Positions 10,162 to 61,985 of a stretch of 64,000 bases of DNA are shown here, one piece after another (position 1 is the stretch's first letter; every line of letters starts with the position of its first letter). The notes under the pieces were generated by a model. The model had not been told where the DNA came from. It searched no databases and worked only from the letters and a program-made list of their open reading frames with translations. Position numbers and translations under genes: made by a program. The stretch covers positions 62,001 through 126,000 of the forward strand of contig CAMNRO010000003.1 in NCBI GenBank assembly GCA_946553045.1. The letters are read 5' to 3'. This stretch comes from an uncultured Porphyromonadaceae bacterium. Its GTDB lineage: Bacteria > Bacteroidota > Bacteroidia > Bacteroidales > Muribaculaceae.

Positions 10162-10752
10162 ATGGAACAACCCAGCTTAGAAAACATCAAGGCTGCTTAT
10201 GAAGCCGCCGATGAAAACGGAAAGAAGATGCTTCGCGCACTCTATCCCGACGTGTTTACCCAGCCTAAAAGGGCTGAAAGCAACCGTCCTGTTACCGAAC
10301 GAGTAAAAACCTTTGATGATGCTTGCCACGAACTTGGCGAGGCTCATCCGCTCGTACAGCACCTCAACCTCGTTGAGCATCACTTAGCTGACCACCTCGA
10401 CGGCATGGACGATGTTCTTGCCTACCTCAAAATGCGTATCGTAGTCGCCGCTCTTAATGAGGGCTGGACGCCTGATTGGGGCAACAAGGATGAATACAAG
10501 TGGTATCCGTGGTACTATATTCTCACCGAGGAAGAATACAACGACCTCGACGATGATGCCAAGTGCCGTGTCGTTGGTCGTGCGGGCAGCTCTGCGTATG
10601 CGTATGGCGGTCTCGTTTGCTCGTACGCGAGCTTCGTTTCTTCGAGCTCGGGCACGGGCGGCGGCGCGCGGCTCGCCTTCAAGTCCAAAGAGCTTGCTGT
10701 TTACGCTGGTCAACAGTTCGGCGAATTGTGGGCTTCTTTCCTCATCGGCTGA
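10162..10752 (+). CDS. DGR target protein 1 (remote target, probably intracellular)
   Basis: 196-aa ORF containing VR1: AKCRVVGRAGSSAYAYGGLVCSYASFVSSSSGTGGGARLAFKSKELAVYAGQQF. Confidence 0.9.
   Translation: MEQPSLENIKAAYEAADENGKKMLRALYPDVFTQPKRAESNRPVTERVKTFDDACHELGEAHPLVQHLNLVEHHLADHLDGMDDVLAYLKMRIVVAALNEGWTPDWGNKDEYKWYPWYYILTEEEYNDLDDDAKCRVVGRAGSSAYAYGGLVCSYASFVSSSSGTGGGARLAFKSKELAVYAGQQFGELWASFLIG
10563..10674 (+). repeat. DGR variable repeat VR1
   Basis: 112-nt alignment to the reverse complement of 24689-24800; 17 mismatches, all at template A positions. Confidence 0.95.
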
Positions 10753-10766
10753 AATCATCATCACAG

Positions 10767-10794
10767 GGCCGGCGGCTCCGTCCGCCGGCCTTTT
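10767..10794 (+). terminator. Strong GC hairpin downstream of VR1 gene
   Basis: GGCCGGCGG-CTCCGT-CCGCCGGCC followed by TTTT. Confidence 0.75.
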
Positions 10795-22378: not shown

Positions 22379-22876
22379 TTACTGTACTGTCTTGTATGCT
22401 TCCAAGTCGCCAAGCTCGTTGATAGCCGTCCACTCCGCTTTGCTGACTGCGGTCTTGTGTGCAGCGATGCCGGCGGCGACTTCTCCGATTTGTTCAGGGG
22501 TGGTAAATGTGAACACCGACGGAATGCCCTCTGCCGACGAGCCAAGATTTATCTCGATAGGCAACTCCATGAAGCCGCCCTGCAAGCCGACAATGATGCC
22601 TGTAAGGTCGCTCTTGCGCTCCTCGGTGTACTCGACTGTGAGGCCGTTCCATTTCAAGCCATAGCGTAGCTGAAACTCGCTCTCCTGTTTGATAGCGTTG
22701 ATGATTGCCGTTTTGATTTCGTCGAGTGTTGGCCGGTGCGTGAAACGCTGTCGCCAATTCCAGCCTGTTTCCGAAGCTTCATCGTCCTTGCCGAAGCCGT
22801 AGATTATCTCCCATTTGTTGCGGCCGACTTTATAAAGCCCGTCCTGCCGCTTCGGGCTACCATAAACTTTTTCCAT
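22379..22876 (-). CDS. hypothetical phage protein (tail-fibre-chaperone-like)
   Basis: 165-aa ORF downstream of the RT; PTLDEIKTAIINAIKQES segment. Confidence 0.45.
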   Translation of the reverse strand: MEKVYGSPKRQDGLYKVGRNKWEIIYGFGKDDEASETGWNWRQRFTHRPTLDEIKTAIINAIKQESEFQLRYGLKWNGLTVEYTEERKSDLTGIIVGLQGGFMELPIEINLGSSAEGIPSVFTFTTPEQIGEVAAGIAAHKTAVSKAEWTAINELGDLEAYKTVQ

Positions 22877-22884
22877 AGTGGTGC

Positions 22885-24597
22885 TTATTTAGTATAGGGT
22901 TGGATGTTGAGCTGTGAAAAGAGAGAGTTGAGTTCCTCGTCGGTCGGCGGTGTATGACCGAATTTCGTGGCAGATGTGAAATTGGCTTTTGGGTATTGTG
23001 TCGAGTAGTCCATTTCTATCGACATGAAGCATGGCAGTTCATTGTCTTTTTCAAGCTGTTCAAGTATGCTCCACAATTCACGGTCGCCGGTCCACATCTT
23101 GCGAAGTGCGCCACGATATATGATTTGGCATAGATATTTGGGCTTGGGCTTTTGCACGAGGTCGGTGTTCAACCCCTTCAGGTCGGCATCCTGTAACCGA
23201 CGTTGATATTCTTCGGTTTCTCGGCGAGGGATTAATTCTCTCTCGAAGTCAACGAGGATAAAGGGTTGTTTGTCTAATTCTCGCGGGCTTATCTTTGAGC
23301 CTTTAAAGTTCTTTTTGCCGTCGAGCGATGTCGGGGCGATTTTCAATTCTCCGAAGTCTTTCACTTTTCTCTTGTGTTTTAGTTTCTTGTATTCTTGTGG
23401 GGTAATTAGCTTTTTCAGTAAGTGGCGACAGTCTGCATGAGCGGCCATGCCGAAGAATGAGCCTATAAGTGACTGTCTGCGTTTGCGCGACTTCACTTCT
23501 TTTATCTTCCTGGCAAACTTCTTTTTGGTGCGTTTCCTGATACGGGAGTACACTGCACGCTCCGGCTTGCTGTCATCAACGAAGGTGTTGTAGCCTAAAT
23601 AGTCAATGCCGACTGTGAGCGGCCTGACTGCTTCGCTCGGTTTGATAGTCAGCTCTAACTCGTCAAGCAGAGATTTAAGATAGTCGCGCAGTTGCCACAA
23701 CTCTTTTTTTGTCTTGGCTATGATTACTATGTCGTCGCAATAACGGTAGTAGTGATAGCGTATCTCTTTACCTTTGATTTTGACTTTGCCAGCACCTTTG
23801 ACGGCAACATCGGCCTCTCCCTCAACCTCGATTTCGTGGTGGCTGACCTTTTCGCACATTTTGTGATCTACGTCGCTCAGGAATAAGTTGGCGAGGCACT
23901 GCGACGAGCGTAGACCTTTCGACAACCCACGAAGCAAAAGCGTTATGAAATTGTCGAGCATATTCAGGACTAAAATGTCGCTTATATACAGCCTGACTTT
24001 CCGTTTCATGCGCCATTGTATTATATGGTCATAGAAGCCGAGAATATCGCATTGATAGAAATTCTGCATATTCTCTTGGTCGCATACTAAATCTTCTTCG
24101 ATGATTTGATGAAGCCAGTGCATACCACGACCTTTAATGCTGGCCGCTGTGTTTTTAATGAGCGTTGGGTGTAGATGTCGCTCGACGGGTACCATTACGG
24201 CATGACAGCCGACACGGTGGTAGACATAAGGGCATTGGCACACCCTCACTTTTGGGCCGTCCGTTACGGTTATCTCGCGTATGTCGTCAGGTGTTATCCT
24301 GAACGAGCCGTTTTTCAGCTCCTGTTCAAGCCTCTTACAGTATTCGGCCTTTTTAGGCCACATATGTTTCCTTTGGCTCGCGTTCTCAAGGTGGCTTATC
24401 ACATAGTCGAAACTTTCAGATATGTTGACCGGGTCGGCAATCTCGTTGATGAGGTTGTCGATTGGAAATACATCCTTGACAGGATTGTCGAGGGCTGTAT
24501 CAATCATATATGGTATTTTTTCTACGTTCATAAGGCCTTCAGGCGCTTCAGTTATGTTCCGGCTTTCTTCCTTGCGGAGAGGGTTGCCGAGGCTCAA
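22885..24597 (-). CDS. DGR reverse transcriptase
   Basis: YRYCDDIVIIAKTKKEL catalytic YxDD box; GLRSSQCLANLFLSDVDHKM matches the DGR-RT GxxxSQ motif; GIDYLGYNTF; next to template repeat. Confidence 0.95.
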   Translation of the reverse strand: MSLGNPLRKEESRNITEAPEGLMNVEKIPYMIDTALDNPVKDVFPIDNLINEIADPVNISESFDYVISHLENASQRKHMWPKKAEYCKRLEQELKNGSFRITPDDIREITVTDGPKVRVCQCPYVYHRVGCHAVMVPVERHLHPTLIKNTAASIKGRGMHWLHQIIEEDLVCDQENMQNFYQCDILGFYDHIIQWRMKRKVRLYISDILVLNMLDNFITLLLRGLSKGLRSSQCLANLFLSDVDHKMCEKVSHHEIEVEGEADVAVKGAGKVKIKGKEIRYHYYRYCDDIVIIAKTKKELWQLRDYLKSLLDELELTIKPSEAVRPLTVGIDYLGYNTFVDDSKPERAVYSRIRKRTKKKFARKIKEVKSRKRRQSLIGSFFGMAAHADCRHLLKKLITPQEYKKLKHKRKVKDFGELKIAPTSLDGKKNFKGSKISPRELDKQPFILVDFERELIPRRETEEYQRRLQDADLKGLNTDLVQKPKPKYLCQIIYRGALRKMWTGDRELWSILEQLEKDNELPCFMSIEMDYSTQYPKANFTSATKFGHTPPTDEELNSLFSQLNIQPYTK

Positions 24598-24688
24598 GTC
24601 CCTCGCAGATTGCGTCGCCCAACTCGTGAGCTTTGCAGGGTCATACGATTATATAGTCCAAAGGGGCATTTGATTTGCGCATTAATGT

Positions 24689-24800
24689 GAGCCGCGCGCC
24701 GTTGTTCGTGTTCGAGTTCGAAGAAACGTTGTTCGCGTTCGAGTAAACGAGACCGCCATTCGCATTCGCAGAGTTGTTCGCACGACCAACGACACGGCAC
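24689..24800 (-). repeat. DGR template repeat (TR)
   Basis: Non-coding 112-nt near-repeat of VR1 and VR2, 24 adenines in 11 AAY codons plus TAC and ACG, located between target gene and RT. Confidence 0.95.
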
Positions 24801-24881
24801 CGGGGACTTTCTACCTTTTTCGCCTACGCTTTCGCGTGACGTATTACGTTAAACTTTTAGTTACTTATCTCTGGGTAATGA

Positions 24882-24906
24882 CCCCGACCGCTTGACGCGG
24901 CCGGGG
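24882..24906 (-). terminator. GC hairpin downstream of VR2 gene
   Basis: - strand CCCCGGCCG-CGTCAAG-CGGTCGGGG (one G-U), no U-tract. Confidence 0.55.
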
Positions 24907-24914
24907 AATAATAG

Positions 24915-27900
24915 TTATGTTGCTTCATTTTCGTCCTCATCGTCAAAGATGATTTCTCCACTGAAGGCGAGCCGCGCGCCGACGTACGTGTACGAGTGCG
25001 AAGAAACGTAGCTCGCGACCGAGTAAACGAGACCGCCATGCGCAACCGCAGAGCCGCCCGCACGACCAACAGCACGGCACTTAGCATGGGTATACCAAGC
25101 TCCGTCGGAATAGTTCTTATTCCATGCAGAGTTGTCACTCGTCATTTTGGCCGGAACGTAATCCATGAAGCGGCCGTAGCGCACTCGACCTATACAATAG
25201 CCACTCTGCGACGATATGTTTACGCCCTGAACCTCACGCTCGGTATCGGTCTGCCTGTTGTAGATATGCCAACGTGCGTCAACGGGATAAGAGCTGTCGC
25301 CGTCAGTCGGATACTTGTCTGCTTTCCATTTCTTGAACGAAGGAACATTGACAGCAACGTGCGCCATCCACTCGTAGTTACAAGCCACGAAGTTTTGAAT
25401 ACCAAACATAAGGTTGCCTACACCCGAAGCTGTGTTTACGAGTGTACGGTTACCCCATGCGTTGATGTTCTTGCCGTTGATTGTTTGTGCGCCACAAGTG
25501 TAACCGGCACCGCAACCACGGCCACATATCGCCTGAATATCGCGGTTGCCGACAAGCTCCATGATTATGTTGGCAAGGTCTTTCGACTGTTCGTAGCTGA
25601 TACTGTGGAAGCCCTTGCCTCGCATTTCACACATATTGATGAAGTCGAGATATGTGCGGTGCATTCCTGTCGGTGCGTTCAGATTGGTTACGTTGCCCTC
25701 TGCGTCATACGTCCATGCCGATGAGCTTCCCGATGCACCGTCGCCGACTTGCGCTTTTGCGCCGGAGATTGAACGGGGTCGGCCGAGTGCGTCAATGCTC
25801 AAGCCGTAGATGCCTACAAGGCTCTGCTTTGCGAACACCCAATCAGGTTCAATAGCTTCAATGGCCGCGCTGTCGACAGCGATTGCTTCCTGTGCGTCGC
25901 TGCCGCTCTGCGATGTGAACATGAACGTGACTGCGCCGGCCGGCACGTCGGTGAAGATATAATCTTCTCCGGCGATGAAGTCAAACTGCGAATTGCTCAC
26001 GGCCATTTTGAAGATTGATATGATTTTACCGCTCGCGTCGAGGAATACACAGCCCAGGTCTTCATTGTTGATACCCGGCCAGCGTACTTGCTTCATGCCC
26101 TGTACGTCGATTTGGTAGACGTTCATGTTGGCGTTGAGGCTGGTGGTCGGAGTATCTCCTACCGACATTGCCGAAACAACGAGGGCGGCATTGGCTTCTA
26201 CAAGTAGGTTAGTGAGCTTGCTTCGGTTGATTTTCTCCCATGTGGCAATAGGACGGTCTTTGCAGATAGAACGGAAACCATATTTTTCTTGGTTCTTGTA
26301 GTCGTTCACGCCCTTATACCAATGGTTAGGTATCGTCTTGAAGAAGTCGTAGCCCATGCCGGAGCTATCCGTAAGGTCGACGCTCGTACCGTCGGCGAGG
26401 AGGTTGTAATCCTCGTTGCCGAGCTTGACGCAGTGCATTACATTGTTCACAAAGTTGCCGCGACATGGCTTGCTCAATTTCTCCAAAGCGGCGAAGTGGC
26501 CGCTCGGTACATAGTCGTTGCCGAATTTGTAACCGGTCTTGTTGTCAAGATTGGTTATGTTCTCACATTCATTCTCAAGGTCGGAATATACGACCATTGA
26601 ATACTGCGAGTTATGGAGGGTTAACTGAGGGAAGTATGAGGCGAAGCCATTGAGAGTATCTTCCTCAATCAAATCTTCCATAATCCAACGACCCGTCAAG
26701 CCTGAGCAGCGTCCTGTTTCCTCGTAGGCTGCGCCGGTGGAGTCGAGGCCGATTGCACCACTGCGTTGCAGGGCGGTGAGGATTGACGACGGTGCTGTGA
26801 TGTTCACGTTAGGTAGTCGGATATAGCGAATATTCGATGATGTAACGAGGCCGTTAATCAGCGTCATGGGGTCAATGTTCGGGCAGTTGTCAAGCATTAG
26901 ACGACTTACATTAGCCATACTTGCGATTGTAAGGCCACCGGGGTACGTCAGGGCTGGCAAGTTCACGAGGTCGAGGCGTGTTACAGTGCCGGGCAGCTCA
27001 AGGGTGTTGATAGGCGACGTTTCTGCTACCTGAAATTCGCTCAACTGTGTGCCACCGGCCAACAGTTGCTCCAATCGCGGACACTTGGAAGCGTCAACAC
27101 TTGTTGCGAGGGTGTTGCGAATATCAAGCACTTGCAGGAACGGAAGCTCCGACAGTGCAAACTGCGTGAGCGGATTGTAGCCGATAGTGTACTGCTTGTA
27201 GTTCTCGCCGCCGACGATTATCTTCTCGGCAAGTTTCATCACGGAGAAGTCGAAGTTATCCGACAGCGATACGTCGACAAATTCTATCTCCCTGATGCGG
27301 TCAGCCTGATAGATATACAGGAGTGCGCCCTGCTGGTGCGAGAAGTTTCTAAAGATGTATTCCTCGCCTTCTTCAAGGTACACAGCACCGTCGGCCGACA
27401 GTGAGCCGGACGAGTCATTGCCCATGCCGAAGTAACCGCTCTTGGCTGCGATTATGCGGATTGCAGCGTTATCACCACAGGCAATACGGCCTGATAGCAC
27501 TCCCGTAAAGAAGCCGCCTGTCTTATAGAAGCCGTCGCGGAAACGCCAACGCTGTTCGATGAATTGAGCGATAGCGGCGAGGCCGAGGCCTTGAAGCGCG
27601 TAGAAATATAGTGCGTCCGAGGTCGCGGTGTACTGTATATATTTGCGGATGCCGTCGTAGCTCGATACTACTTTCGGCCATTTTTTGAGGTGTTGGTCGA
27701 TGAAGTAGTATTTAGCACCTTCAGGAGAGAACGGATTGATTGTTCTGCCGTCAGGCAAAGTTACCTGAACGGCTCGCATAGCGGCAACCGTCTTTTGGTA
27801 TTCAATCTCTCCGCCATTGTCGTCAACCTTGATTGTTTTGGCCGCGAAGTAACCGCGCCAAGGTACTGCGCCCCAACCGGCCCACGGATTGACATAGCCG

Positions 27901-30900
27901 GTGGCTTCGTCACTCGGTTTGGTCGGGTCGGCTTCGGGCTGGCCTGTGTCGCCGCCGTCGTTGTCCGACATATACGCGCCGTCGATGTCATACTTTTTGT
28001 TGGCATTCTGCACTACGGGCTGACGTGTCAACACGAAATCACAGTTGAAGCCGGTGGGCGATGTCGCTCCCTCTTTGTCGGGGTCATAAACGCCGCCGAC
28101 AACATTATGCCCTTCAAGCAAGAAGTGCATGGGCTGGTGGTTCTTCGATAGCGAGTCAAACTCGTTTTGATAGTCAGCGTCGGCAAGATACACCATGTCG
28201 GCGCGGACGTTGCGGAATTTGTAGGCGTTGTTGCTCCAACGCTCCACCCATTCATCCTGATGCTTTGCATAGTCGCAGTAGTCGCATAGACGTAGCTGAA
28301 CATACAGCTCGAACGGAACGACACGACCCATAGCCAAATCGGCCTGTAATGCGTCGTTGTCAACCATACATTCAAAGTAGTATGTCCATGCAGGAAATTC
28401 TTCGCCTGTAACGCCGGAACTTGATTTATCAATGAGCTTCTGCACCCACTTTGCGATGTTCTTTGACGGCCTCATCATATCTTCGATTGAAGACACTCCT
28501 TGCCACCAATCAAAGCCCTCATAGGTCAGCAACTCGAAGCCGCCAACAGGGTTAAGAACGTCGCCGGTTATAGTGCGTGTTTTTGCTCCTGTCCATATCC
28601 ATGAGCCGGTGGTGTTCTTCCACTCGCCGCCTTGATAGCGCATGAAACGATAGTTACGGCTGCAATACGGATAGAGAAGATACGGCATACCCGTGTCGAG
28701 TCCTTCCATAGTTTTGAAGCGGGCTTCCATTTGGTCAAGCGTTTCTCCCGGATTACCACATACCCAGTTGAAGACTTCATCTTGGAAATTAAGACAGCCC
28801 TTGTTATAGCCGGGTACGTCTTTGAAGCCGAGTGCTACCTGTTCGCCCTTGTCCTCTTTCCAATTACCTTTGGCTTCAAACCACACGTTTTGCAGGGTGT
28901 CGCTGTTGGAACGGAACACGGCGATTGGGTGATTGGCCGTCGAGTGGTTCATCTGCAAACCGCTCAAATGCACGTCGCCTTTATCCCATGTGCCGTCATA
29001 GCAACGCTGCGCCGGTGTAAGGAAGTCGTCGCCGAGGGCGCGATATGTCGCGTTTACCATATCGCACACTGAACAGTCGTTGGCACCGCCAGAGTTGGAG
29101 TAATCGACTTTGATTGTGATAACGTCGACCGGGATAGAGTTCTCGGTAACGCGGATTTTCTTCATCGCGAAAAGCGCATAGGTTGTCAGTGCATCCTCGT
29201 TGGTGTAGTCGGGATAGAGCGGTATAACCTCGGTTGCTTTCTTGATGTAGATACGGTAGTTCTTCTTGGGACGCTTGGCCGATGTCGTACCCTGACGGCG
29301 TATTTCACAGTTGACAGCCTTGAACGACCGCCACGGCATTGTCGGGTGGTAGTAGTAGACAGTCATTTTGAATTTGTCCGATGTCGAAGTACCGTCGTCG
29401 TCTACACCCTTGCCGAAGTCGAATTGATTGTGAACATCGTCGTCTGCCACAAAGATACAGTAAGGCATACCTTGTGTGAACAGGAGCGGTGCGCTTGGGC
29501 GCATTGAGGTTGTCCCCTCGGCATTCTGCGACACAAGAACGTTCTCGCGGTTAAACTCTGCTATCATCGCGTCGGTGTCGGTCTGCTTTACGATGTAATT
29601 GCGGAATGCCTGGCTCCAATCGTAGTAGCTTTGATACGCCAGCATATAGTAGAGATATAGGTCGCCCTCGGTGCCGTCCATTGTTACATTCTTCATGTTC
29701 AACAGGCGACTGCCGCCGGGGTTATAGCCTATCGAGCCGACAAGCTCACCGTCGAGGTACATACGCATGGTGGCCCACTCCGTACCATTGCGGTTAATAG
29801 AGATTGTTGACGGCTCTACAACAACTGCTACGGTGTGCATTTCTCCGCAAGGGAAACGACGCTCGATAAGAGCCGGGGAGCCGGACTTGCATTGTAAGCC
29901 GACTTTGTTGCCCTTGATAAAGAAGCCTGCGCCGTTGTCGGGGTCGACACATTTCAGGAGCATAGCGTCTGCGTCCTTGATATTGTTGGTCGCAAACATT
30001 GTCTGATACACCATGCCGGTTGCCTCGATTGTACGCGAGGAGAAAGGCGCATGATTTTTCTCTGCCGTAACATTCTCTGCTATTCGCAGTGCGTTTTGAC
30101 CGAGATAATTCACAAAGCCGTTGCTACTCCAATTCGCGCCGTGAACGACTATGCGATAGTTGCCGACAACAATCTCGTGCGACGGCTCGGAGTTGCTGCG
30201 GCCGGAGAAGTCGAAGTGATAAAGTGCGCCGTCCATGAGCGCGGCGTCAATGGCTGAACCTTTCACAGTCAGGGTTACAGTACCCGATGTGGCAAGAACA
30301 TTGTCGCCGTCGTAGGCTTCTGCTTTGATGCTGATTTTATCGCTTCCGTCGCTCTGGTAACCTGAAACTTGCATTTCGGCTGTTTCGATTTGGTTTGCGC
30401 CAAGCTCGTAACGGCCGAGCACTCGGTCGTCAGCTTTCAGTGCGACGTTGGTTGTCAGCATTTGAGGATTGGGGTTGTACGCTGCGACTTCAACCTTTAC
30501 GCGGTCGTAAAGGCGCACAGTGCCGTCGCCCGTGTCATTGTAGCGCAGTGCAACAACAGGCACACTGCTGTTGGGGTCGATACACATCACAGCGGTGTAA
30601 ATGGTGTTGCCGGTTACTCCTGAAGCAACGTCTTTGCCGTGTATGCGCACAGGATATGCGCCGTGCTGCATTCTCTCACCGCCGCCGAAAAGGTTGGTCG
30701 GGTTGAACTGCGCACTGTTGCTGTATGCGTCGAAGTGCGTGGGGGGTGTTGCTGTGAGCGGCTTCCATGCACCTTCCCACCAAATTTCAACGAATGCCTG
30801 AATACCTTTCTCGCTGACGTTTTGAGGGAATTTGTAAAGCGGCACATTGACAGCTCGGTTGCTGCCATAGGGAATTACATAATCCGATGTGTAGTTAAGC

Positions 30901-33455
30901 ACTTGTGTACTCTCGACAGTCGCGTCTACAGCCGTAACCGTTATGAAGCGATAGCCTACATGGTCGGTGTCGTCGGTGGCTTCCAAACGGAAACGACGAG
31001 AACCGGCACCGTCAAACAAGCCGGAGAAAGGTATGTCAAAGTTGTATTCGTCCTCGTCCGATGAACGGGTGTTTACAGTCCACTCGCGGATAACTACGTT
31101 GGTGTCGCGGTCGATGAGTTTCAGAGACACAATCGAGTTGAGTTGCTCGGTTGACCCTAACTGCGTCACGGAACGGATACAGGCATGGCCGATGATGTCT
31201 TTGCCGACAGCACCGTAAAGAGGCGACTCCTGAAATTTGATATTGACGATTGTTCCTGATACCTCACCGCCACCGCCTTGCGACGCAAAGAATGTAATGG
31301 CTTCGCCAATTTCTTCTTCGGCTTCATTGAGCGGCTGAATGGTAACTGTACCGTCCTCCTGTGTTACGCGATACTTTGTCGGGATATGCTTGTATGCACC
31401 GCCGGTAGAAAGTGCGTCTTTGCCGCCGGCCGCAGGGTCGTCTTTAGTTTCGACTTCGGTTTGACCGCCGCCGCCAAATGGTATCCAAGGTTTCAGGTCT
31501 GCCGGATTGATGTCGGCGATTTCTCGCGTGAACTGATAGGCTTCCCAAACAGGTGCGCCCTTGCTGTCCTTTTCGGCTGTCTTGTAGGTCAGCACAACGC
31601 CACTCTTGAAATACTTGATACCACTCTCGGCCTCTTTGTCCTGTACGGCTTTAATGGCTGTGCTCAATGTATATTCGGTGTCGCCGCAAACATCGTTGAC
31701 ATTGACGGTGTTTCCGATGTTGTTGCCGTTCACTCCGAAGTCAGTCCATGCGCTTTCTTCGGTAAAAGAGTCGTCGCCATTCCACTGTTTGCTTTCCCAG
31801 CCATTCTTGCCACGGAAAGAAACAACGATACCGGGAATATGGAAGATTGTGCCAAACTGTGTTTCAAGGAGCTTGGAAACTTCGCCGATTGTGTAGGTAG
31901 CAGTGTAATCAAGAAGCTGATTGGCATTGATGAAAGTGCGAGGCTTCTTTACATTCTCAACCTCATTATTGAGTTTCTTGTCAGTGATGAATACCTCTAT
32001 CTCCTCGTTTTCTATACGATAGAGATAGTTATTGCAACGGTATAGATTATAGGCGTTGGCTTGTAGGTCACTGTTGTACTTTTCCTCGGCTATGCCGTAG
32101 AAGTCAGACCCGCCAAATGCGCGGAAATACCAACCGCCGTCAGGGCTGGGGCAAAGATATATACCGACTGTCGGCTCTGAACCGTTGCCGTTCCAGACAC
32201 CGTCAAAAGGTAGAATACTGATATTCTCGATTATGTTGCGGTTCTCGTTGGCCTTAATGTTCAGGTCTCTAACATCATTCTGCAACTGTACGCCTGCATC
32301 GCCCGGAAAGGCGGTGTTTGCAGTATAGCCAAGAGCAAGGTCGTTGCCGATTATCACAAGCTCGTAGCCACTCCAACGGTAGGTTTTATTATCCGAAGTG
32401 CAGATATGTACCTTTCCTGCTTCGGGGGTTGCTCCGTTATCTGTCGCTGTACCGAAGCTATCTTTGTCGCCCCATACTGCATAGTATTTGAATTGGGATT
32501 TGATAAGCTCAACCCTGCCATTGGCTTCTTCCCAATAATCCGTTAAACCCGGACGCAATAGGCTTTCGGCAAGTTGCGGTGTTTCGGCTTGAGGTGTGAT
32601 TATAGAAGCCTCACTGTTTATGCTGCGAAGTGGACGGATTACGTTGCCCCATTCAATAGTTGATGAGGGCGAAAGAATAGACACGGCGAGAAGATAGCAG
32701 TTGGTGTCCTTGTTATAGACAACCATACAGCCTACATTCGTTGACTTGAGAGTTGTTGTACTGTCTTGGAGCGTGATGTCTTCGACCATAGCATTAAACT
32801 CTATCACGTCATCAACATAGCCGGGTAGGTTTGCCGCCGGTACTTTGGCGTTAGCGTCAAGAGGCGCAAATCCGTTGGCTTTGCCCTTACTGCTGTTAAT
32901 ATTGTCAACGCCTGACTGTGCGGAGGCTGCGTCAGCCACACCTTTGTTGGCTTGTGTCTGCGCGGCTTCAACGGCTTTTTGAAGATTGTTGAGCTGGTCG
33001 CCCTGCGTCGTTTGGCCGGAGCGTAAGCTGCGGATGTCTTCCTTATTTTGGTTGACTTCGATTTTGACGGCTTCAAGGTCGCCTGTCATTTCTTCCACAG
33101 CTTCCATGTATTCCGACGAGTCGACCGTGGGGTTACCCGCAAGTTTAGGTGTGCCGTCGGCATTGGTTTGACCTACCCAAGCACCGCCGTCGGCCATGTA
33201 GACCTGAGCTGGCAGGGTGTCGCCCACCAACGCCCACCAACCCTCGTGTGGATTGGGGTATGCTTCACGCAATTGTACCGCCGTCTTGAATAGACCCTTG
33301 TTAGGTCCTTTGACATTGGGAGCGTCAAGCCAACCCTCCACTTTCAGGTTATGACCGATAGTAGCAGAGCCACGGACGGTAGCCTTACCGCCTACGCTGA
33401 CATTACGCCCTACCGCAACATCACCGTCGATTTGTTTTGTTGGGATTGAACTCAT
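24915..33455 (-). CDS. giant tail-fibre/adhesin-like protein, DGR target 2
   Basis: 2846 aa; fibre-like N-terminus (IDGDVAVGRNVSVGGKATVRGSATIGHNLKVEG), LamG-like and LRR-like regions, C-terminal variable region KCRAVGRAGGSAVAHGGLVYSVASYVSSHSYTYVGARLAFSGE. Confidence 0.9.
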   Translation of the reverse strand: MSSIPTKQIDGDVAVGRNVSVGGKATVRGSATIGHNLKVEGWLDAPNVKGPNKGLFKTAVQLREAYPNPHEGWWALVGDTLPAQVYMADGGAWVGQTNADGTPKLAGNPTVDSSEYMEAVEEMTGDLEAVKIEVNQNKEDIRSLRSGQTTQGDQLNNLQKAVEAAQTQANKGVADAASAQSGVDNINSSKGKANGFAPLDANAKVPAANLPGYVDDVIEFNAMVEDITLQDSTTTLKSTNVGCMVVYNKDTNCYLLAVSILSPSSTIEWGNVIRPLRSINSEASIITPQAETPQLAESLLRPGLTDYWEEANGRVELIKSQFKYYAVWGDKDSFGTATDNGATPEAGKVHICTSDNKTYRWSGYELVIIGNDLALGYTANTAFPGDAGVQLQNDVRDLNIKANENRNIIENISILPFDGVWNGNGSEPTVGIYLCPSPDGGWYFRAFGGSDFYGIAEEKYNSDLQANAYNLYRCNNYLYRIENEEIEVFITDKKLNNEVENVKKPRTFINANQLLDYTATYTIGEVSKLLETQFGTIFHIPGIVVSFRGKNGWESKQWNGDDSFTEESAWTDFGVNGNNIGNTVNVNDVCGDTEYTLSTAIKAVQDKEAESGIKYFKSGVVLTYKTAEKDSKGAPVWEAYQFTREIADINPADLKPWIPFGGGGQTEVETKDDPAAGGKDALSTGGAYKHIPTKYRVTQEDGTVTIQPLNEAEEEIGEAITFFASQGGGGEVSGTIVNIKFQESPLYGAVGKDIIGHACIRSVTQLGSTEQLNSIVSLKLIDRDTNVVIREWTVNTRSSDEDEYNFDIPFSGLFDGAGSRRFRLEATDDTDHVGYRFITVTAVDATVESTQVLNYTSDYVIPYGSNRAVNVPLYKFPQNVSEKGIQAFVEIWWEGAWKPLTATPPTHFDAYSNSAQFNPTNLFGGGERMQHGAYPVRIHGKDVASGVTGNTIYTAVMCIDPNSSVPVVALRYNDTGDGTVRLYDRVKVEVAAYNPNPQMLTTNVALKADDRVLGRYELGANQIETAEMQVSGYQSDGSDKISIKAEAYDGDNVLATSGTVTLTVKGSAIDAALMDGALYHFDFSGRSNSEPSHEIVVGNYRIVVHGANWSSNGFVNYLGQNALRIAENVTAEKNHAPFSSRTIEATGMVYQTMFATNNIKDADAMLLKCVDPDNGAGFFIKGNKVGLQCKSGSPALIERRFPCGEMHTVAVVVEPSTISINRNGTEWATMRMYLDGELVGSIGYNPGGSRLLNMKNVTMDGTEGDLYLYYMLAYQSYYDWSQAFRNYIVKQTDTDAMIAEFNRENVLVSQNAEGTTSMRPSAPLLFTQGMPYCIFVADDDVHNQFDFGKGVDDDGTSTSDKFKMTVYYYHPTMPWRSFKAVNCEIRRQGTTSAKRPKKNYRIYIKKATEVIPLYPDYTNEDALTTYALFAMKKIRVTENSIPVDVITIKVDYSNSGGANDCSVCDMVNATYRALGDDFLTPAQRCYDGTWDKGDVHLSGLQMNHSTANHPIAVFRSNSDTLQNVWFEAKGNWKEDKGEQVALGFKDVPGYNKGCLNFQDEVFNWVCGNPGETLDQMEARFKTMEGLDTGMPYLLYPYCSRNYRFMRYQGGEWKNTTGSWIWTGAKTRTITGDVLNPVGGFELLTYEGFDWWQGVSSIEDMMRPSKNIAKWVQKLIDKSSSGVTGEEFPAWTYYFECMVDNDALQADLAMGRVVPFELYVQLRLCDYCDYAKHQDEWVERWSNNAYKFRNVRADMVYLADADYQNEFDSLSKNHQPMHFLLEGHNVVGGVYDPDKEGATSPTGFNCDFVLTRQPVVQNANKKYDIDGAYMSDNDGGDTGQPEADPTKPSDEATGYVNPWAGWGAVPWRGYFAAKTIKVDDNGGEIEYQKTVAAMRAVQVTLPDGRTINPFSPEGAKYYFIDQHLKKWPKVVSSYDGIRKYIQYTATSDALYFYALQGLGLAAIAQFIEQRWRFRDGFYKTGGFFTGVLSGRIACGDNAAIRIIAAKSGYFGMGNDSSGSLSADGAVYLEEGEEYIFRNFSHQQGALLYIYQADRIREIEFVDVSLSDNFDFSVMKLAEKIIVGGENYKQYTIGYNPLTQFALSELPFLQVLDIRNTLATSVDASKCPRLEQLLAGGTQLSEFQVAETSPINTLELPGTVTRLDLVNLPALTYPGGLTIASMANVSRLMLDNCPNIDPMTLINGLVTSSNIRYIRLPNVNITAPSSILTALQRSGAIGLDSTGAAYEETGRCSGLTGRWIMEDLIEEDTLNGFASYFPQLTLHNSQYSMVVYSDLENECENITNLDNKTGYKFGNDYVPSGHFAALEKLSKPCRGNFVNNVMHCVKLGNEDYNLLADGTSVDLTDSSGMGYDFFKTIPNHWYKGVNDYKNQEKYGFRSICKDRPIATWEKINRSKLTNLLVEANAALVVSAMSVGDTPTTSLNANMNVYQIDVQGMKQVRWPGINNEDLGCVFLDASGKIISIFKMAVSNSQFDFIAGEDYIFTDVPAGAVTFMFTSQSGSDAQEAIAVDSAAIEAIEPDWVFAKQSLVGIYGLSIDALGRPRSISGAKAQVGDGASGSSSAWTYDAEGNVTNLNAPTGMHRTYLDFINMCEMRGKGFHSISYEQSKDLANIIMELVGNRDIQAICGRGCGAGYTCGAQTINGKNINAWGNRTLVNTASGVGNLMFGIQNFVACNYEWMAHVAVNVPSFKKWKADKYPTDGDSSYPVDARWHIYNRQTDTEREVQGVNISSQSGYCIGRVRYGRFMDYVPAKMTSDNSAWNKNYSDGAWYTHAKCRAVGRAGGSAVAHGGLVYSVASYVSSHSYTYVGARLAFSGEIIFDDEDENEAT
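24969..25080 (-). repeat. DGR variable repeat VR2
   Basis: 112-nt match to TR at a constant 280-bp offset; 16 mismatches at template adenines plus 2 non-A differences at the 5' edge. Confidence 0.95.
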
Positions 33456-34813: not shown

Positions 34814-36265
34814 TTACACAGTGGCTGCGCCGCCGGTCGGGGGCTGTGCGAGACGCATACGGGCGTGAGCCTTGGCGTAACGCAGATAGAGGCAGGCAAC
34901 TTCCTGAATTACTACTGCGTCAGTGTTGCGAATACCGGCAGTCTTCAGGTCGAGGACATTACGGGCCCACGATACATGAGTCTTCTTCGAAAGATATTCG
35001 GGATCCATTGCGAAGCCGCAATCGCTCATACCGTTTGCGTCGAAAAGCTCGTGGTGGATAGTCAGCACTTCGCCGAAGTCAGTATCCCACGATTTGAATT
35101 TCAAGTTCCATACTTCTACGGTGTCTTTCAGACGGAATTTCTCACTCTTGATTTTCGAGAATGCCGACAACATATCGGAACCGCAGAAAAGAATTTTGCG
35201 CTTGTTGCCGATACCCGTGCCGACAAAGAGGTCTTTAGTGATGTCCACAAGGTTGTCGTCGGTAATTACGGCACATTTGGCGGTGTCGTCCCATACGCCT
35301 ACCTCGATGTCCTTACCGGCCATGTACCAAATGCCGCCGGTAAACCATGTGTTCATGCCCTCTTTGGCAACGTGTTTGATTACATTCTTTACGCCGAAAA
35401 GATAGGTGTTTTCCTGAGAGAGTCGCATATCGTAGATACCGTCTTCCTCAATGTCCGAGAAACTCCAATTTACTTCTTTGGCGGCAATCTTGTCAAAGGT
35501 CGACTGTTCTACCTGAATCATGAAGTTCTGACAATACTGCACTTCGGGCATAGGAATGTTGTTGAAGCGGCCAGTCTGCACATCAAGCTCTCCACAGGCT
35601 TTACCCATGCGCACGAGTGTAGTGCCGCTGGGAATGGCGGGTACGAGTGTGGCATAGCCGGTGGTCGCGTCCTTGTCGCCGTTCACGGCATAAACCGTTG
35701 GCATATTGGTGTCGGTACTCTTACCGCACACACACAGCACGAGGTCAGGCACATTGTCGCTGTCGGTGGGATAGGCAACACCCTTGTCGTCATACAAGCC
35801 TTTCACGCCAACAACGCGGATTGTGTCATCGAGTGTGAACATATTGGCATCGTCGACGGGCAGGGTAATCGACGCGCCGGAAGTCTGCGCCGTTACGGCT
35901 TTATTGGTCTTACATGAGATAGGTCGAGTGCCGACGCTGTAGTATTTGACTTCAAACGACTTGCACGACGAGGATTTTGCGTAGCGTGAAATCTGGTCGA
36001 TAGGCGTTGCCATAGGACGGATTTTGATGATACGCTTGTCGATGTCCTGCATGTAGAAGTTGGGGTCGCCGTCCTCGCGCCCCTGCGTCTCGGTCGCGAT
36101 ACCGTCAGTGCCACCTGTGCCGTCTGCACCGGCATTTACTTTACCTGCGTCGGGGAGGTCGCTGGCTGCGGCCATGTAAACCCCGGAGCTTGCCCCCGCA
36201 ACGAGGGCAATCATACTCAGCATGAAACTGAGCAGAAAACGAGTTGTCTTTTTAACTGTTTCCAT
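34814..36265 (-). CDS. putative major capsid protein
   Basis: 483-aa ORF downstream of a scaffold-like gene; NFYMQDIDKRIIKIRPMATPIDQISRYAKSSSCKSFEVKYYSVGTRP; hydrophobic N-terminus. Confidence 0.7.
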   Translation of the reverse strand: METVKKTTRFLLSFMLSMIALVAGASSGVYMAAASDLPDAGKVNAGADGTGGTDGIATETQGREDGDPNFYMQDIDKRIIKIRPMATPIDQISRYAKSSSCKSFEVKYYSVGTRPISCKTNKAVTAQTSGASITLPVDDANMFTLDDTIRVVGVKGLYDDKGVAYPTDSDNVPDLVLCVCGKSTDTNMPTVYAVNGDKDATTGYATLVPAIPSGTTLVRMGKACGELDVQTGRFNNIPMPEVQYCQNFMIQVEQSTFDKIAAKEVNWSFSDIEEDGIYDMRLSQENTYLFGVKNVIKHVAKEGMNTWFTGGIWYMAGKDIEVGVWDDTAKCAVITDDNLVDITKDLFVGTGIGNKRKILFCGSDMLSAFSKIKSEKFRLKDTVEVWNLKFKSWDTDFGEVLTIHHELFDANGMSDCGFAMDPEYLSKKTHVSWARNVLDLKTAGIRNTDAVVIQEVACLYLRYAKAHARMRLAQPPTGGAATV

Positions 36266-37666: not shown

Positions 37667-38124
37667 TCGCAGCTTACGTCCTTGCGTCAGCACTTATATA
37701 TGTGCCGGATTGGAACGTAGTCGGTGCTACTGCTGACTGCGGCATACTTCAGCGGCTTGGCTATTCTTTCTTCCATGCGTCATTGCTACATGCGTCAATA
37801 AATGCTTGGTGTTTCATTTCTATACTTTTCCTCTACAACGTGACATGGTGGCGTATGGCCGTAGCTTATGCAATAGCCGTAGCTGCTCCTGACTTTGTTT
37901 TGTCAACAATGCCTACTGTTGGACTTTCGGCAGTTTGTTTTGCCTTGCTCGGCTCGATCGCTTTTCAGGCGAAACGCAAAATATATTACAATGGCTGTAT
38001 GGCATTGTATATCGCTCTCGGTTTTATGTTTCCACTCGTAAATGGGTGGCTTCATTTTTACAGTTATGTAGCCGGGCTGTTTGTCGGCTTCCTTAATATG
38101 CCAATACCATGCAGAAGGAAGTAA
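37627..38124 (+). CDS. rhomboid-like six-TM membrane protein
   Basis: FFHASLLHASIN (HxxxxHxxxN), TVGLSAVCFALLG (rhomboid serine loop), YVAGLFVGF TM6. Confidence 0.7.
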   Translation: MVCGKIEKTAGLLIAAYVLASALIYVPDWNVVGATADCGILQRLGYSFFHASLLHASINAWCFISILFLYNVTWWRMAVAYAIAVAAPDFVLSTMPTVGLSAVCFALLGSIAFQAKRKIYYNGCMALYIALGFMFPLVNGWLHFYSYVAGLFVGFLNMPIPCRRK

Positions 38125-40217
38125 CACAAATACTCAAAATCAATCAGGAGCGGTTGGATGAAATTCACGCTCCGTTTAATCCTATAACCGGCAAAGGGTC
38201 GGTCGGCACTCGCTTCGAGTGTGTGATTGAAGACTTCCCGATAAAACGCCAATGGCTACCGGAAGCAATGCGCAAAACCCCACTTGTGCGACGGCTTCTG
38301 GCCGCTGGCTCTATCGAGACGTTCTTATGTGATACTCTCGGCGTAGAATATGACGATGAAGAAGAATATGAGGCTGACCGCCTGAAAGTCGTTGAACAGT
38401 TTGTGCGTATACGTTCCCGACATGACTTTCCGTTTTGGGCAGCAACGTATGTTTGGATTAAGAATAAGGGCGGCGGCGAGGATGTGCTGTTTCGCCTTAC
38501 AAGACCACAGCGTCGTTTTGTAGAGCGTCTTGAAGAAAAACGTCTTGCCGGTAAGCCCATTCGTCTTATCCTTTTGAAAGCTCGACAGTGGGGCGGCTCT
38601 ACAACGTCGCAGCTGTATATGGCATGGTTGCAGCTCGTTCATCGAGTCGGCCTCAACTCGCTAATTATCGCACACCAAACATCAGGTTCGGACGAAATCC
38701 GTGATATGTTCAATCGTATGCTCGACCGATACCCGGTGGAAATGCTCTATAAGCTGGGGGCTGACTATGACGACAACGAACCTAAACTTGTCGGGGTCGG
38801 TATGTCGGGCCTTATTCATGCCGTACCACAGCGCAACTGCAAAATCAAGATTGGCACAGCTAAAAATCCCGACTCGTGTCGTGGCGGAGACTACAATCTC
38901 GTTCACTGTTCCGAGGTCGGTATATGGGAGAAGACCGAAAAGAAATCGCCTGAAGATATTGTGCGCTCGGCCTGTTCGGGTGTACTTTATAAGCCCTATA
39001 CCATGATTGTTTATGAGTCAACCGCCAATGGTACGGGCAATTTCTTTCAGGTTGAATACGACGCAGCCAAGAAAGGAAAGTCGCAATTTGAAGCAATGTT
39101 TGTCTCGTGGTTCGATATTGAGCAATATTCACTCGATTTTGAAAGCGAAGCCGAAAAACAAGAGTTTGCCGGGTGGCTGTATGACAATCGGGAGAATGGC
39201 AATGCCACTTCGGAGCGTGAGGAGTGCGGCCGTTATCTTTGGTGGTTGTGGGAAAAGGGCGCGACGCTTGAGGCTATAAATTGGTATATCCGTGAACGTG
39301 CCAAGTCTAATGAACACGCTATTATGGCTTCGGAATATCCGTCCGATGATGTAGAGGCATTCGTTCATTCCGGCACTCGTGTATTCGACAAATACCGTGT
39401 CGAGGCGTTGAAGTCTACATGCAAGCCACCCTCTCAAATTGGCGACGTATATGCTGACTTCGACGAGGGCAAAAAGGCGTTACAAAATTTGCGCTTCCGT
39501 GAGGATCGGCAGGGCTTGTTGTGGGTATGGGCGCAACCCGAAATAGACCCGGAAGAAAAAGTGACTAATCGCTACCTTACTGTTGTCGATGTCGGCGGCC
39601 GCTCTCATAAGGCCGACTGGTCGGTAATCGTTGTCTTCGACCGCCTGTTTATGGCCGAGGGTGGCAAGCCTGTTGTTGTGGCTCAATGGTATGGTCATAT
39701 CGACATAGACCTCTTGGCATGGAAAGCTGCGCAGATTGCAGCTTACTATGATAATTCATTGCTCGTTATTGAGAGCAATACTCTCGAAACGCACGATAAA
39801 GAGCGTAATGTCGACGGCGACCAATCACAATTTATTCTTAATCAGGTCAAGGACGTTTACCCAAACCTTTATGAGCGTAAGCAACCCGAAGAAGCGATTG
39901 TCGAAGGTGCGCCTAAAAGATACGGCTTCCATACCAACATCGCCACAAAGCCGATGATTATCTCAACACTCGTTAAGGTTATTCGTGAGGCTATGTATGT
40001 CGAGCGCGACGAGCGTTGTCTTGCAGAGTATAACTTCTACGAGAAGCGTAAAAACGGCAGTTTCGGAGCTATCGTAGGCAAGCATGACGACTTGTTGATG
40101 ACACGCGCCATTGGCTTGCACATCTGCTTCTACGAAATGGATATGCCTAAAATCATACCTGTGCAAAAGAAATATAACCGTGGCCGTCGGAAACCAATAT
40201 CTGCCGCCACTTTCTAA
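38109..40217 (+). CDS. terminase large subunit
   Basis: LLKARQWGGSTTSQLYMAW Walker-A-like; TVVDVGGRSHKADWSVIVVFD nuclease motif; KHDDLLMTRAIGLHI. Confidence 0.9.
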   Translation: MQKEVTQILKINQERLDEIHAPFNPITGKGSVGTRFECVIEDFPIKRQWLPEAMRKTPLVRRLLAAGSIETFLCDTLGVEYDDEEEYEADRLKVVEQFVRIRSRHDFPFWAATYVWIKNKGGGEDVLFRLTRPQRRFVERLEEKRLAGKPIRLILLKARQWGGSTTSQLYMAWLQLVHRVGLNSLIIAHQTSGSDEIRDMFNRMLDRYPVEMLYKLGADYDDNEPKLVGVGMSGLIHAVPQRNCKIKIGTAKNPDSCRGGDYNLVHCSEVGIWEKTEKKSPEDIVRSACSGVLYKPYTMIVYESTANGTGNFFQVEYDAAKKGKSQFEAMFVSWFDIEQYSLDFESEAEKQEFAGWLYDNRENGNATSEREECGRYLWWLWEKGATLEAINWYIRERAKSNEHAIMASEYPSDDVEAFVHSGTRVFDKYRVEALKSTCKPPSQIGDVYADFDEGKKALQNLRFREDRQGLLWVWAQPEIDPEEKVTNRYLTVVDVGGRSHKADWSVIVVFDRLFMAEGGKPVVVAQWYGHIDIDLLAWKAAQIAAYYDNSLLVIESNTLETHDKERNVDGDQSQFILNQVKDVYPNLYERKQPEEAIVEGAPKRYGFHTNIATKPMIISTLVKVIREAMYVERDERCLAEYNFYEKRKNGSFGAIVGKHDDLLMTRAIGLHICFYEMDMPKIIPVQKKYNRGRRKPISAATF

Positions 40218-40887: not shown

Positions 40888-42861
40888 TTACGCCGCCATG
40901 GGTTGGGGGTTCATAAGCATTTGACGTGCGGCCTGAACATTCTGCATATTTGCTCCGGCCTGTACTTGCTGTTGTAACTGCGGCGACATGGCTTCCGGCA
41001 CCTGACCCTGTTCGAGTTGTTCCTTTTGACTGCGGATAGACTGCAATAGGTCGTCGGCAAATGGGAAGTCGCCGTGCTCCAGAAGCTGCTCGACCGAAAT
41101 TGCCTGTGCTTGCCACAACTGCATGAGTATGTCGTTGGCCATTTGTCGGAATGCCGGGGTGTTGGTGCTTTCGACAATAGAGAGGTCGAAGTCGACGTCG
41201 CGTATAGTTTTGGGGTCGTATTCAACCCATGCGTTTTTACCAACAATATTGAATATGCGCTTTGTGTCATAGAACTGTTGCATATTCTTCACGTCCTTTA
41301 TCGCGCCGTCCTTGACAAAGTAGCTGAAGCTGTCGAGCAAGTCAAGCAACGATGTTGTGGCGTTTTGCGTCTGCTGGTTGTAGAGTGCTGCGCTTTGATT
41401 GGCATATCCGGGCTTACCCTGCAATGCGCCGTTCACACCTGAAATGTCTTCAAAGAATTTCAGCTGTAGGTTCAGCAATTCAGTAATACCAATTTGCGTC
41501 GAGTTGTTGGCAATCTGCTGTGGAACGGCAACACCCGGTTTGGGCTTATAGTAGACAATACCGTCAAACTTGCCCCATTCTTCGGCAATATCGTCCATGC
41601 TCATATTGTCAGGCTCACAGCCCTCAGGGAACAGGAGTACGCCTTTTGCGCTTGCCCTCATGATGAAGTCGTAGAGCGTGATGAGGCGGTTGGTGTATCG
41701 TTGTTGGTCGATTACGTCTGCAACAAAACTGTGTATCTCGCCGTCGATGAAAGGGTATGCCTTGAACACATAGGGATGGCTCTTGTGTTCGTATGGTGTT
41801 TCGCCCTCTTTCAGTATGTGGCCGAATGGAGTCAGGTAATAATAGTACCAATAGTGGTCTATCATCCACGTTGCTTTTATGAGCGGAATTTCATCGTCAG
41901 GCATACCGGCCGCACGACCTCGCATAAGACGCTCTTTGTTTATAGAGCCGACCATTTCTTCGTAGTCCTCAACGTCGATTTTGTAGACGTCGCCATTGTT
42001 CAGGTCGTGGCAACGGTAACGGGGCTTGGCTTCCTTACGCCACACTTCTATAACCCTGCAACGTGTGGGGTCGCTCGTAAACAGGAAATCGAAATTTTCA
42101 AGACGTGAGTATCCGAACCGATAGGCGTAGTTGGCGATGTATTGTTTGTTGTGAGCAAAGGTGTATATTTCTCTGAAGCGTCGGTAGTCTTCCGGGCTTT
42201 CGGCAAACTGAGCACATAGCGTCTCAAAAGAAACATCGTGTACTTCGCCGAGACAAGATACATCCCAGCCTCGGAAATCGCGCATATTGTTGTCGATAAA
42301 GAAATTGTTGGGATTAACATAGTCAGTCCAACAGTCCATTTTCTCGTTACGCCAACTATACGACTTCCGATGTACGATTAAACCGCCAATCAAAAATTCT
42401 TCCATGGTTCGGGCATAAACCTCAGTCATGCGGTTTAGCTGCATATTGCACTGCAAGATTGTGGTCATTGTCTCGCCAAGTTTCTGCTCGTCGCGGTCTC
42501 GTGCATAACACGTCGGCTCTTTAGCCTGACTTCGGTATACACCCAGCACATTCCGCACAAGGCGGCGTATTAGGTTATTCTTCAGCGGAACGTTGCCCTG
42601 CTTGCCGATGTATTCTTCCTCGGTCATGGTGCAACCGTCCACCTCGATGATGTCTTTCCATTGGTCGCCGTAGCAATAGCGTTTATTGCGCTGGCGATCG
42701 CGACGGAATTGGTCCATGTTGTTCCAATGGTGTTGTGCTTCCATAAGCACGTCAAACGCTCTCCTGTCGCCTCGCCGCTTTGATGTGGCAACAGTGTCCA
42801 TGTCGTCCTCAATCTCACGAGGACGGACACGGCTCATTCTATGTAGTTTGTCCTTTGCCAT
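40888..42861 (-). CDS. portal protein
   Basis: 657-aa ORF; KNNLIRRLVRNVLGVYRSQAKEPTCYARDRDEQKLGE..., ISGVNGALQGKPGYANQSAALYNQQTQNATTSLLDLLDSF. Confidence 0.85.
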   Translation of the reverse strand: MAKDKLHRMSRVRPREIEDDMDTVATSKRRGDRRAFDVLMEAQHHWNNMDQFRRDRQRNKRYCYGDQWKDIIEVDGCTMTEEEYIGKQGNVPLKNNLIRRLVRNVLGVYRSQAKEPTCYARDRDEQKLGETMTTILQCNMQLNRMTEVYARTMEEFLIGGLIVHRKSYSWRNEKMDCWTDYVNPNNFFIDNNMRDFRGWDVSCLGEVHDVSFETLCAQFAESPEDYRRFREIYTFAHNKQYIANYAYRFGYSRLENFDFLFTSDPTRCRVIEVWRKEAKPRYRCHDLNNGDVYKIDVEDYEEMVGSINKERLMRGRAAGMPDDEIPLIKATWMIDHYWYYYYLTPFGHILKEGETPYEHKSHPYVFKAYPFIDGEIHSFVADVIDQQRYTNRLITLYDFIMRASAKGVLLFPEGCEPDNMSMDDIAEEWGKFDGIVYYKPKPGVAVPQQIANNSTQIGITELLNLQLKFFEDISGVNGALQGKPGYANQSAALYNQQTQNATTSLLDLLDSFSYFVKDGAIKDVKNMQQFYDTKRIFNIVGKNAWVEYDPKTIRDVDFDLSIVESTNTPAFRQMANDILMQLWQAQAISVEQLLEHGDFPFADDLLQSIRSQKEQLEQGQVPEAMSPQLQQQVQAGANMQNVQAARQMLMNPQPMAA

Positions 42862-61487: not shown

Positions 61488-61985
61488 TTAGAGTATTCCT
61501 GCGATATTTGAGCCGGCTTGCGTCACACCCTGAATAGCTTGCGCCACATTGGCCGCTTTCTTCTGCTCAAGGTCGTTTAACTGCTGCTGAATATTCGCGT
61601 CGGTTTGTAAATATTGGCTCTCGATAGCGTCTTTTCTCGCCTCGCCATTGACGGCGATGTTGGTTGTTGCCGTTGCAAGAGCCTCGTTATTGGCCGCTTT
61701 GGCCGCTGCGACGCTTTCTTCCGTTCCACCCATGACGGCCTGAGCCGCAGCCGCCTGTTTGTTGCGGTTGCGTATAGACTCCTCGGTCTTTGTCAGGATA
61801 GCCTGTGCGTCGGCTCGTTGGGTTGCGTCCTCATTGTAGCGGCGGTCGTACCAATCTTGGTTTTTGCGTCGCTGCTCCTGCAAATTCTTTTTAACACGTT
61901 TCATGGCCTTTGACGCAGAAATGCCGCCGAAAATACTCCCGACAGCTCCTAACCCTGCGCCGATTGCGCCGCCTAATATGCCCAT
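61488..61985 (-). CDS. putative internal virion protein
   Basis: 165 aa; glycine-rich hydrophobic N-terminus MGILGGAIGAGLGAVGSIFGG then coiled coil. Confidence 0.6.
   Translation of the reverse strand: MGILGGAIGAGLGAVGSIFGGISASKAMKRVKKNLQEQRRKNQDWYDRRYNEDATQRADAQAILTKTEESIRNRNKQAAAAQAVMGGTEESVAAAKAANNEALATATTNIAVNGEARKDAIESQYLQTDANIQQQLNDLEQKKAANVAQAIQGVTQAGSNIAGIL

Follow-up and report, generated by a model that had tools for sequence, protein, structure and literature searches.

Phage diversity-generating retroelements (DGRs) are usually read as diversifiers of host attachment. Phage DGRs in which one template repeat (TR) serves two targets have been described for the tentaclins, whose variable repeat (VR) belongs to a C-lectin domain at the N-terminus, with Ig domains after it (PMC10743442), and for the Bacuni phages, where one of the two targets is distant and the targets are described as fimbrial-tip-like (PMC8143477). 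In the Quimbyviridae the second target is distal, encoded on the opposite strand, non-structural, and located among defence-related genes (PMC8008677). LoVEphage and the Quimbyviridae were each reported to share about 95% identity with one Bacteroides dorei genome, CP011531 (PMC8525569, PMC8008677), and therefore LoVEphage appears to be of the Quimbyviridae type. Distal second VRs near counter-defence genes have also been reported for four gut prophage species (PMC12629997). Distal non-structural DGR targets are already known; what is new here is one further member and the evidence for a single recurring protein family. In a literature search of incomplete coverage, we found no prior statement that the distal targets of several phage and RT lineages belong to one homologous family.

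The window, by which we mean the whole 64-kb stretch of DNA that was analysed, comes from a gut-type Bacteroidales bacterium, and the DGR lies within a resident virus genome, a podovirus-like prophage. Its features are:

10162 to 10752, plus strand: target gene 1, encoding a 196-aa protein (phrog_11581) in the early/replication module; carries VR1
10563 to 10674, plus strand: VR1, inside the 196-aa ORF
10767 to 10790, plus strand: perfect 9-bp hairpin shortly 3' of target gene 1
22379 to 22876, minus strand: 165-aa ORF after the RT, a weak homologue of a hankyphage protein annotated Avd by its depositors; candidate accessory protein
22885 to 24531, minus strand: reverse transcriptase (RT), 548 aa from ATG, with a YCDD motif
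24533 to 24650, minus strand: Rfam RT-3 RNA (RF03068) between TR and RT, 47.8 bits against a cut-off of 40.5
24689 to 24800, minus strand: TR, 112 nt, with 24 adenines in its 111-nt core (24690-24800; position 24689 matches too)
24882 to 24906, minus strand: GC-rich hairpin between target gene 2 and the TR, with similar hairpins in relatives
24915 to 33455, minus strand: target gene 2, encoding a 2846-aa tail-region protein (phrog_14959), with a weak match to a minor tail protein family in its N-terminal part
24969 to 25080, minus strand: VR2, encoding the end of the 2846-aa protein
34814 to 36265: SU10-type capsid
38109 to 40217: large terminase
40888 to 42861: P22-type portal
61488 to 61985: weak T7 gp14-like match

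Hankyphage (Bacteroides phage p00; PMC6199706) resembles this locus in having a TR about 76% identical, an RT of the same clade, an RT-3 RNA between TR and RT, a long target gene with a C-terminal VR, and a small ORF after the RT; it is annotated with one VR, whereas here a second, distant VR lies in an early gene. The cultured Bacteroides phage BS-TP4 (PQ571277) shares the gene order over the compared region, together with a homologous RT, RT-3 RNA, TR and VR2, but has one VR in the 42 kb examined and no homologous early target there. As in the Quimbyviridae and LoVEphage, a single TR serves two genes, one in the tail region and one that is non-structural, distal, on the opposite strand and close to methyltransferases; LoVEphage differs in its unrelated phage background and its much different, shorter RT ORF, and the RTs are not close in the tree. 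In the four gut prophages, too, the second VR is reported to be distant from the RT cassette and to have a DNA methyltransferase nearby (PMC12629997). The 196-aa protein departs from the tentaclin architecture, having a helical N-terminal part, a VR near its C-terminal end, and no match to an Ig domain. The DGR itself is ordinary; its interest lies in VR1 and the protein family of VR1, outside the span 22885-25080 to which the original prediction had assigned the cassette. A DGR does lie in that span, but it extends further, to VR1 at 10.6 kb and to the accessory candidate at 22379-22876.

Template repeat and variable repeats

On the minus strand the order is the 2846-aa gene, the GC-rich hairpin, the TR, the RT-3 RNA, the RT and the 165-aa ORF. 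The sense strand of the TR, just as predicted, holds its 24 adenines per 111 nt in 11 AAY codons plus TAC and ACG. Relative to the TR, VR1 (10563-10673) has 17 differences, 12 A-to-G and 5 A-to-T, all of them at TR adenines; VR2 (25080-24970) has 18 differences, 16 at TR adenines and 2 elsewhere. The hypergeometric chance of such a concentration at adenines is 7.6e-15 for VR1 and 1.2e-11 for VR2. When the 64-kb window was scanned with the TR, letting TR adenines pair with anything and counting non-A mismatches, VR1 gave 0, VR2 gave 2, and the next-best place gave 45; only three copies of the repeat (TR, VR1, and VR2) occur in the assembly. VR1 lies 14 kb from the TR on the opposite strand. Both VRs are in frame, VR2 at the C-terminus of its protein and VR1 at about codons 135-171 of 196, and directly after the shared end both read GCCTTCA, where the TR has ACATTAA. 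A difference of this kind would fit a 3' IMH element common to the VRs, but the two VRs also encode the same residues at that place. Two hallmarks of DGRs, a TR/VR pair whose mismatches concentrate at adenines and a target gene that carries its VR in frame towards the 3' end, are seen at both sites. No profile match to a C-type lectin or Ig-like fold was obtained at either VR, the models having pLDDT 34 for VR2 and below 50 across VR1; for VR2 there were too few homologues, and at that score the model was unusable.

Relatives of the prophage allowed the direction of sequence transfer to be read. In two viral contigs (G101 and G102) the TR differs from that of the window at 7 non-A sites, and VR1 and VR2 of each contig show 0 non-A differences from their own TR, the remaining 7 to 13 differences all being at adenines of that TR. 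The non-A changes of these TRs reappear in both VRs, and therefore sequence flows from the TR to both VRs. The same adenine bias, from 9/11 up to 13/13, was seen at the further VR2 loci examined. Near-identical viruses, sought by a scan of viral contigs for the exact TR/VR pattern, were not found. The predicted position of a VR at the 3' end of the 2846-aa gene, and the predicted pairing of one TR with two VRs, agree with the mismatch counts given above, and the latter also with the concordance of each relative's VRs with its own TR.

Hairpins follow both target genes; they are GC-rich and are kept in close relatives with altered sequence. As a general signal, a hairpin 3' of the VR gene was rejected: it is present in close relatives and missing from most distant VR1 genes, and because of that absence we do not claim it as part of the mechanism.

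Reverse transcriptase, RT-3 RNA and proposed mechanism

The RT carries YCDD and SQ-type motifs and matches the profiles RVT_1 and phrog_1423. In the PDB its sequence matched just one set of nine entries, whose representative, 8ub7, bears the label 'Reverse transcriptase'; we take it to be the DGR RT of BPP-1. Over 74% of its length the prophage RT is 37% identical to the hankyphage DGR RT, and in the RT tree it falls into a 100/99 clade with those of hankyphage, BT-TP2, and BS-TP4, apart from group II intron RTs; an RT of DGR type thus adjoins the TR, as is characteristic of DGRs. The ORF predicted at 22885-24597 is present, but its start at TTG 24597 (570 aa) had to be revised; the start is most likely ATG 24531 (548 aa), because the RT-3 RNA occupies 24533-24650 and ends one base before that ATG. 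The C-terminal stretch of the RT past residue 430 (22885-23240, minus strand) is unmatched in hankyphage RTs and is kept in close relatives.

The RT-3 RNA was found in the equivalent place in close relatives (45-48 bits), hankyphage (146.6), BT-TP2 (125.2), and BS-TP4 (74.5). Since it lies exactly between TR and RT here and in the latter three phages, it may be a structured or 3' part of the template RNA downstream of the TR in this DGR clade. Our literature search, which had limited coverage, yielded no papers tying RT-3 RNA to DGRs. As a separate observation, BS-TP4 (L004 20143-20803) carries a RelE-like toxin and an XRE-type regulator between its DGR target gene and RT.

We consider it very probable that a two-target prophage DGR explains the locus as a whole. 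One transcript would contain the TR and then the RT-3 RNA; the 548-aa RT, probably with the small accessory protein, would copy this transcript into cDNA mutated at template adenines. This cDNA would then overwrite VR2, in the last part of the neighbouring gene for the 2846-aa tail-region protein, and would also replace VR1 in trans, inside the gene for the 196-aa protein, which lies 14 kb away in the early/replication module. The cDNA biochemistry and the accessory role are steps that we infer. Points that count against this reading are the 2 non-A differences of VR2 and the low similarity of the accessory candidate to the annotated hankyphage Avd. That a complete DGR is present, the central claim of the original prediction, is upheld by the order target-TR-RT, adenine-directed differences at two VRs, the placement of the YCDD-bearing RT with the hankyphage DGR RTs, and a TR that co-evolves with both VRs in relatives.

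Present-day activity of the DGR in this prophage may be supposed by proxy, from relatives with both targets and from the recent adenine-only rewriting of the VR1-family gene in LoVEphage (see below). The cassette might instead be decayed and inactive, with VR differences that are old. This seems very unlikely to us, as the RT is open with its YCDD motif, the TR is intact, both VRs are in frame, the RT-3 RNA is kept, and relatives have the same arrangement with VRs concordant with their own TR.

The VR1 protein family in other phages

LoVEphage, Versailles, and BT-TP2 encode homologues of the 196-aa protein, each with a VR matching the TR of its own phage; the identity to the LoVEphage distal target is 36%. 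A search of the phage collection found 8 records of the family, all of the LoVEphage, Versailles or BT-TP2 lineage, BI-TP1 and PV4-TP1 being LoVEphage-like. A comparison of two LoVEphage genomes, MW660583 and OY731433, showed 20 differences in the VR of the family gene, each at a TR adenine, and none in the remaining 463 bp; the LoVEphage gene has undergone recent adenine-directed rewriting. The attributes of a Quimbyvirus-type distal target, namely a homologous protein encoded far from the RT and outside the structural module and carrying a TR-matched VR, are all found in the window.

Alignment searches gave 105 loci of the VR1 family. Among 29 viral contigs picked mainly for length, 20 contained an RT, and in 20/20 of these the TR adjoining the RT paired with the family gene (13-22 adenine mismatches and 2-3 others); a control with the roles reversed gave only two short matches over the 20 contigs. 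Several of the 20 are close relatives, so they do not represent 20 independent events; the RT tree nevertheless contains at least three deep lineages. The pairing of TR with family gene was seen in 9 host genomes as well. We regard these results as evidence that the VR1 protein family is a recurrent DGR target in many different phages with several RT lineages. The distance from RT to family gene ranged from 4 to 34 kb, the gene being sometimes on the opposite strand; it exceeded 5 kb in 18/20 contigs, and therefore a 10-kb scan centred on the RT would miss most of them.

This recurrence bears on the idea that VR1 is a passive bystander, a chance-captured copy of a VR that is still overwritten without benefit. 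The 196-aa protein has no assigned function, which would fit such a history. The pairing, on the other hand, repeats in all 20 contigs and across several RT lineages, and the gene stays open and in frame around the VR; because a VR captured by chance would not turn up repeatedly in a single protein family, we consider a bystander origin very improbable, the least probable of the explanations weighed here.

Shorter members of the family (about 150-160 aa; L113, L120, L122, L123, L125, L128, L132, and L133) have a Versailles-type RT no more than about 1.5 kb away, with the TR in between, and are nearby targets. Another shorter member, L115, stands beside an RT and is a candidate nearby target.

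Possible roles of the two target proteins

The diversification of VR2, at the end of a tail-region protein, most likely serves host attachment. For the 196-aa protein the surroundings are different: a Lin1244_N replication initiator and a DnaC-like loader lie upstream of its gene, and a MazG-like gene and a C5 DNA methyltransferase lie downstream. A Lin1244_N initiator was located 2.0-3.4 kb from the family gene in 6/6 contigs that have one. No signal-peptide-like or membrane stretch was seen in the protein (maximum KD19 0.9). Searches of the VR1 family against Pfam, NCBIfam, PADLOC, and PDB profiles gave no informative family. In the model of the 196-aa protein the helical N-terminal part is predicted with confidence and the VR region is unreliable; a fold search of the PDB with this model matched nothing. 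In the family a conserved helix comes after the VR, which is not at the C-terminus.

Given the lack of a signal or membrane stretch and the proximity of Lin1244_N, we favour a cytoplasmic early recognition protein over a part of the virion. The contrary possibility is that the protein is associated with the virion, for receptor binding or as an adaptor, and that its gene merely happens to lie in the early region; both targets would then serve attachment. This view draws on the TR shared with the tail-region target, and thus an identical starting loop, on the annotation of the Versailles homologue as 'tail protein', and on the assignment of most viral DGR targets to tails (PMC8144416). The Versailles name, however, is based on a profile match only; the neighbourhood is of the early/replication kind in the window, LoVEphage, and Versailles, and with Lin1244_N in the six contigs just mentioned; the family gene frequently lies at a distance from the RT and in some cases on the other strand; and VR1 is followed by the conserved helix. 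On balance we judge a virion location unlikely.

On this view VR1 would most likely diversify a recognition surface through which the cytoplasmic protein contacts a variable molecule of the host or of a rival phage, early in infection or during lysogeny. We infer the cytoplasmic location and the functions of both target proteins from these data, and we would put a non-virion recognition role for the VR1 protein at about an even chance. A counter-defence role would rest on neighbouring genes that are not constant: defence and counter-defence neighbours vary across the family, and a methyltransferase neighbourhood was rejected as a family-wide trait, since a methyltransferase (two families searched) lay within about 6 kb of the family gene in only 7/20 contigs. 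Slightly more tentative is a broader proposal: one homologous family of small, early-module, non-virion proteins may be dedicated to DGR targeting in many Bacteroidales phages with several RT lineages, usually outside the 10 kb around the RT that DGR finders scan, and its hypervariable members may work inside the cell as recognition factors directed at host defences or at rival phages. If a recurrent non-virion second target is indeed kept with quite different RTs, phages would diversify a recognition protein inside the cell as well. The cultured carriers LoVEphage, Versailles, and BT-TP2 make the intracellular-recognition reading directly testable.

Two further features of the window concern the prophage as such. 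A 5804-aa polyvalent protein with LPD38, Strawberry-notch-type helicase, InPase, and ddrB-ParB domains is encoded at 42942-60356 on the minus strand, and BS-TP4 has a similarly large gene. At the left edge, near a RecT gene, tRNA-Gln (1384-1455) and tRNA-Leu (2020-2096), both on the plus strand, may mark a prophage boundary or be phage tRNAs.
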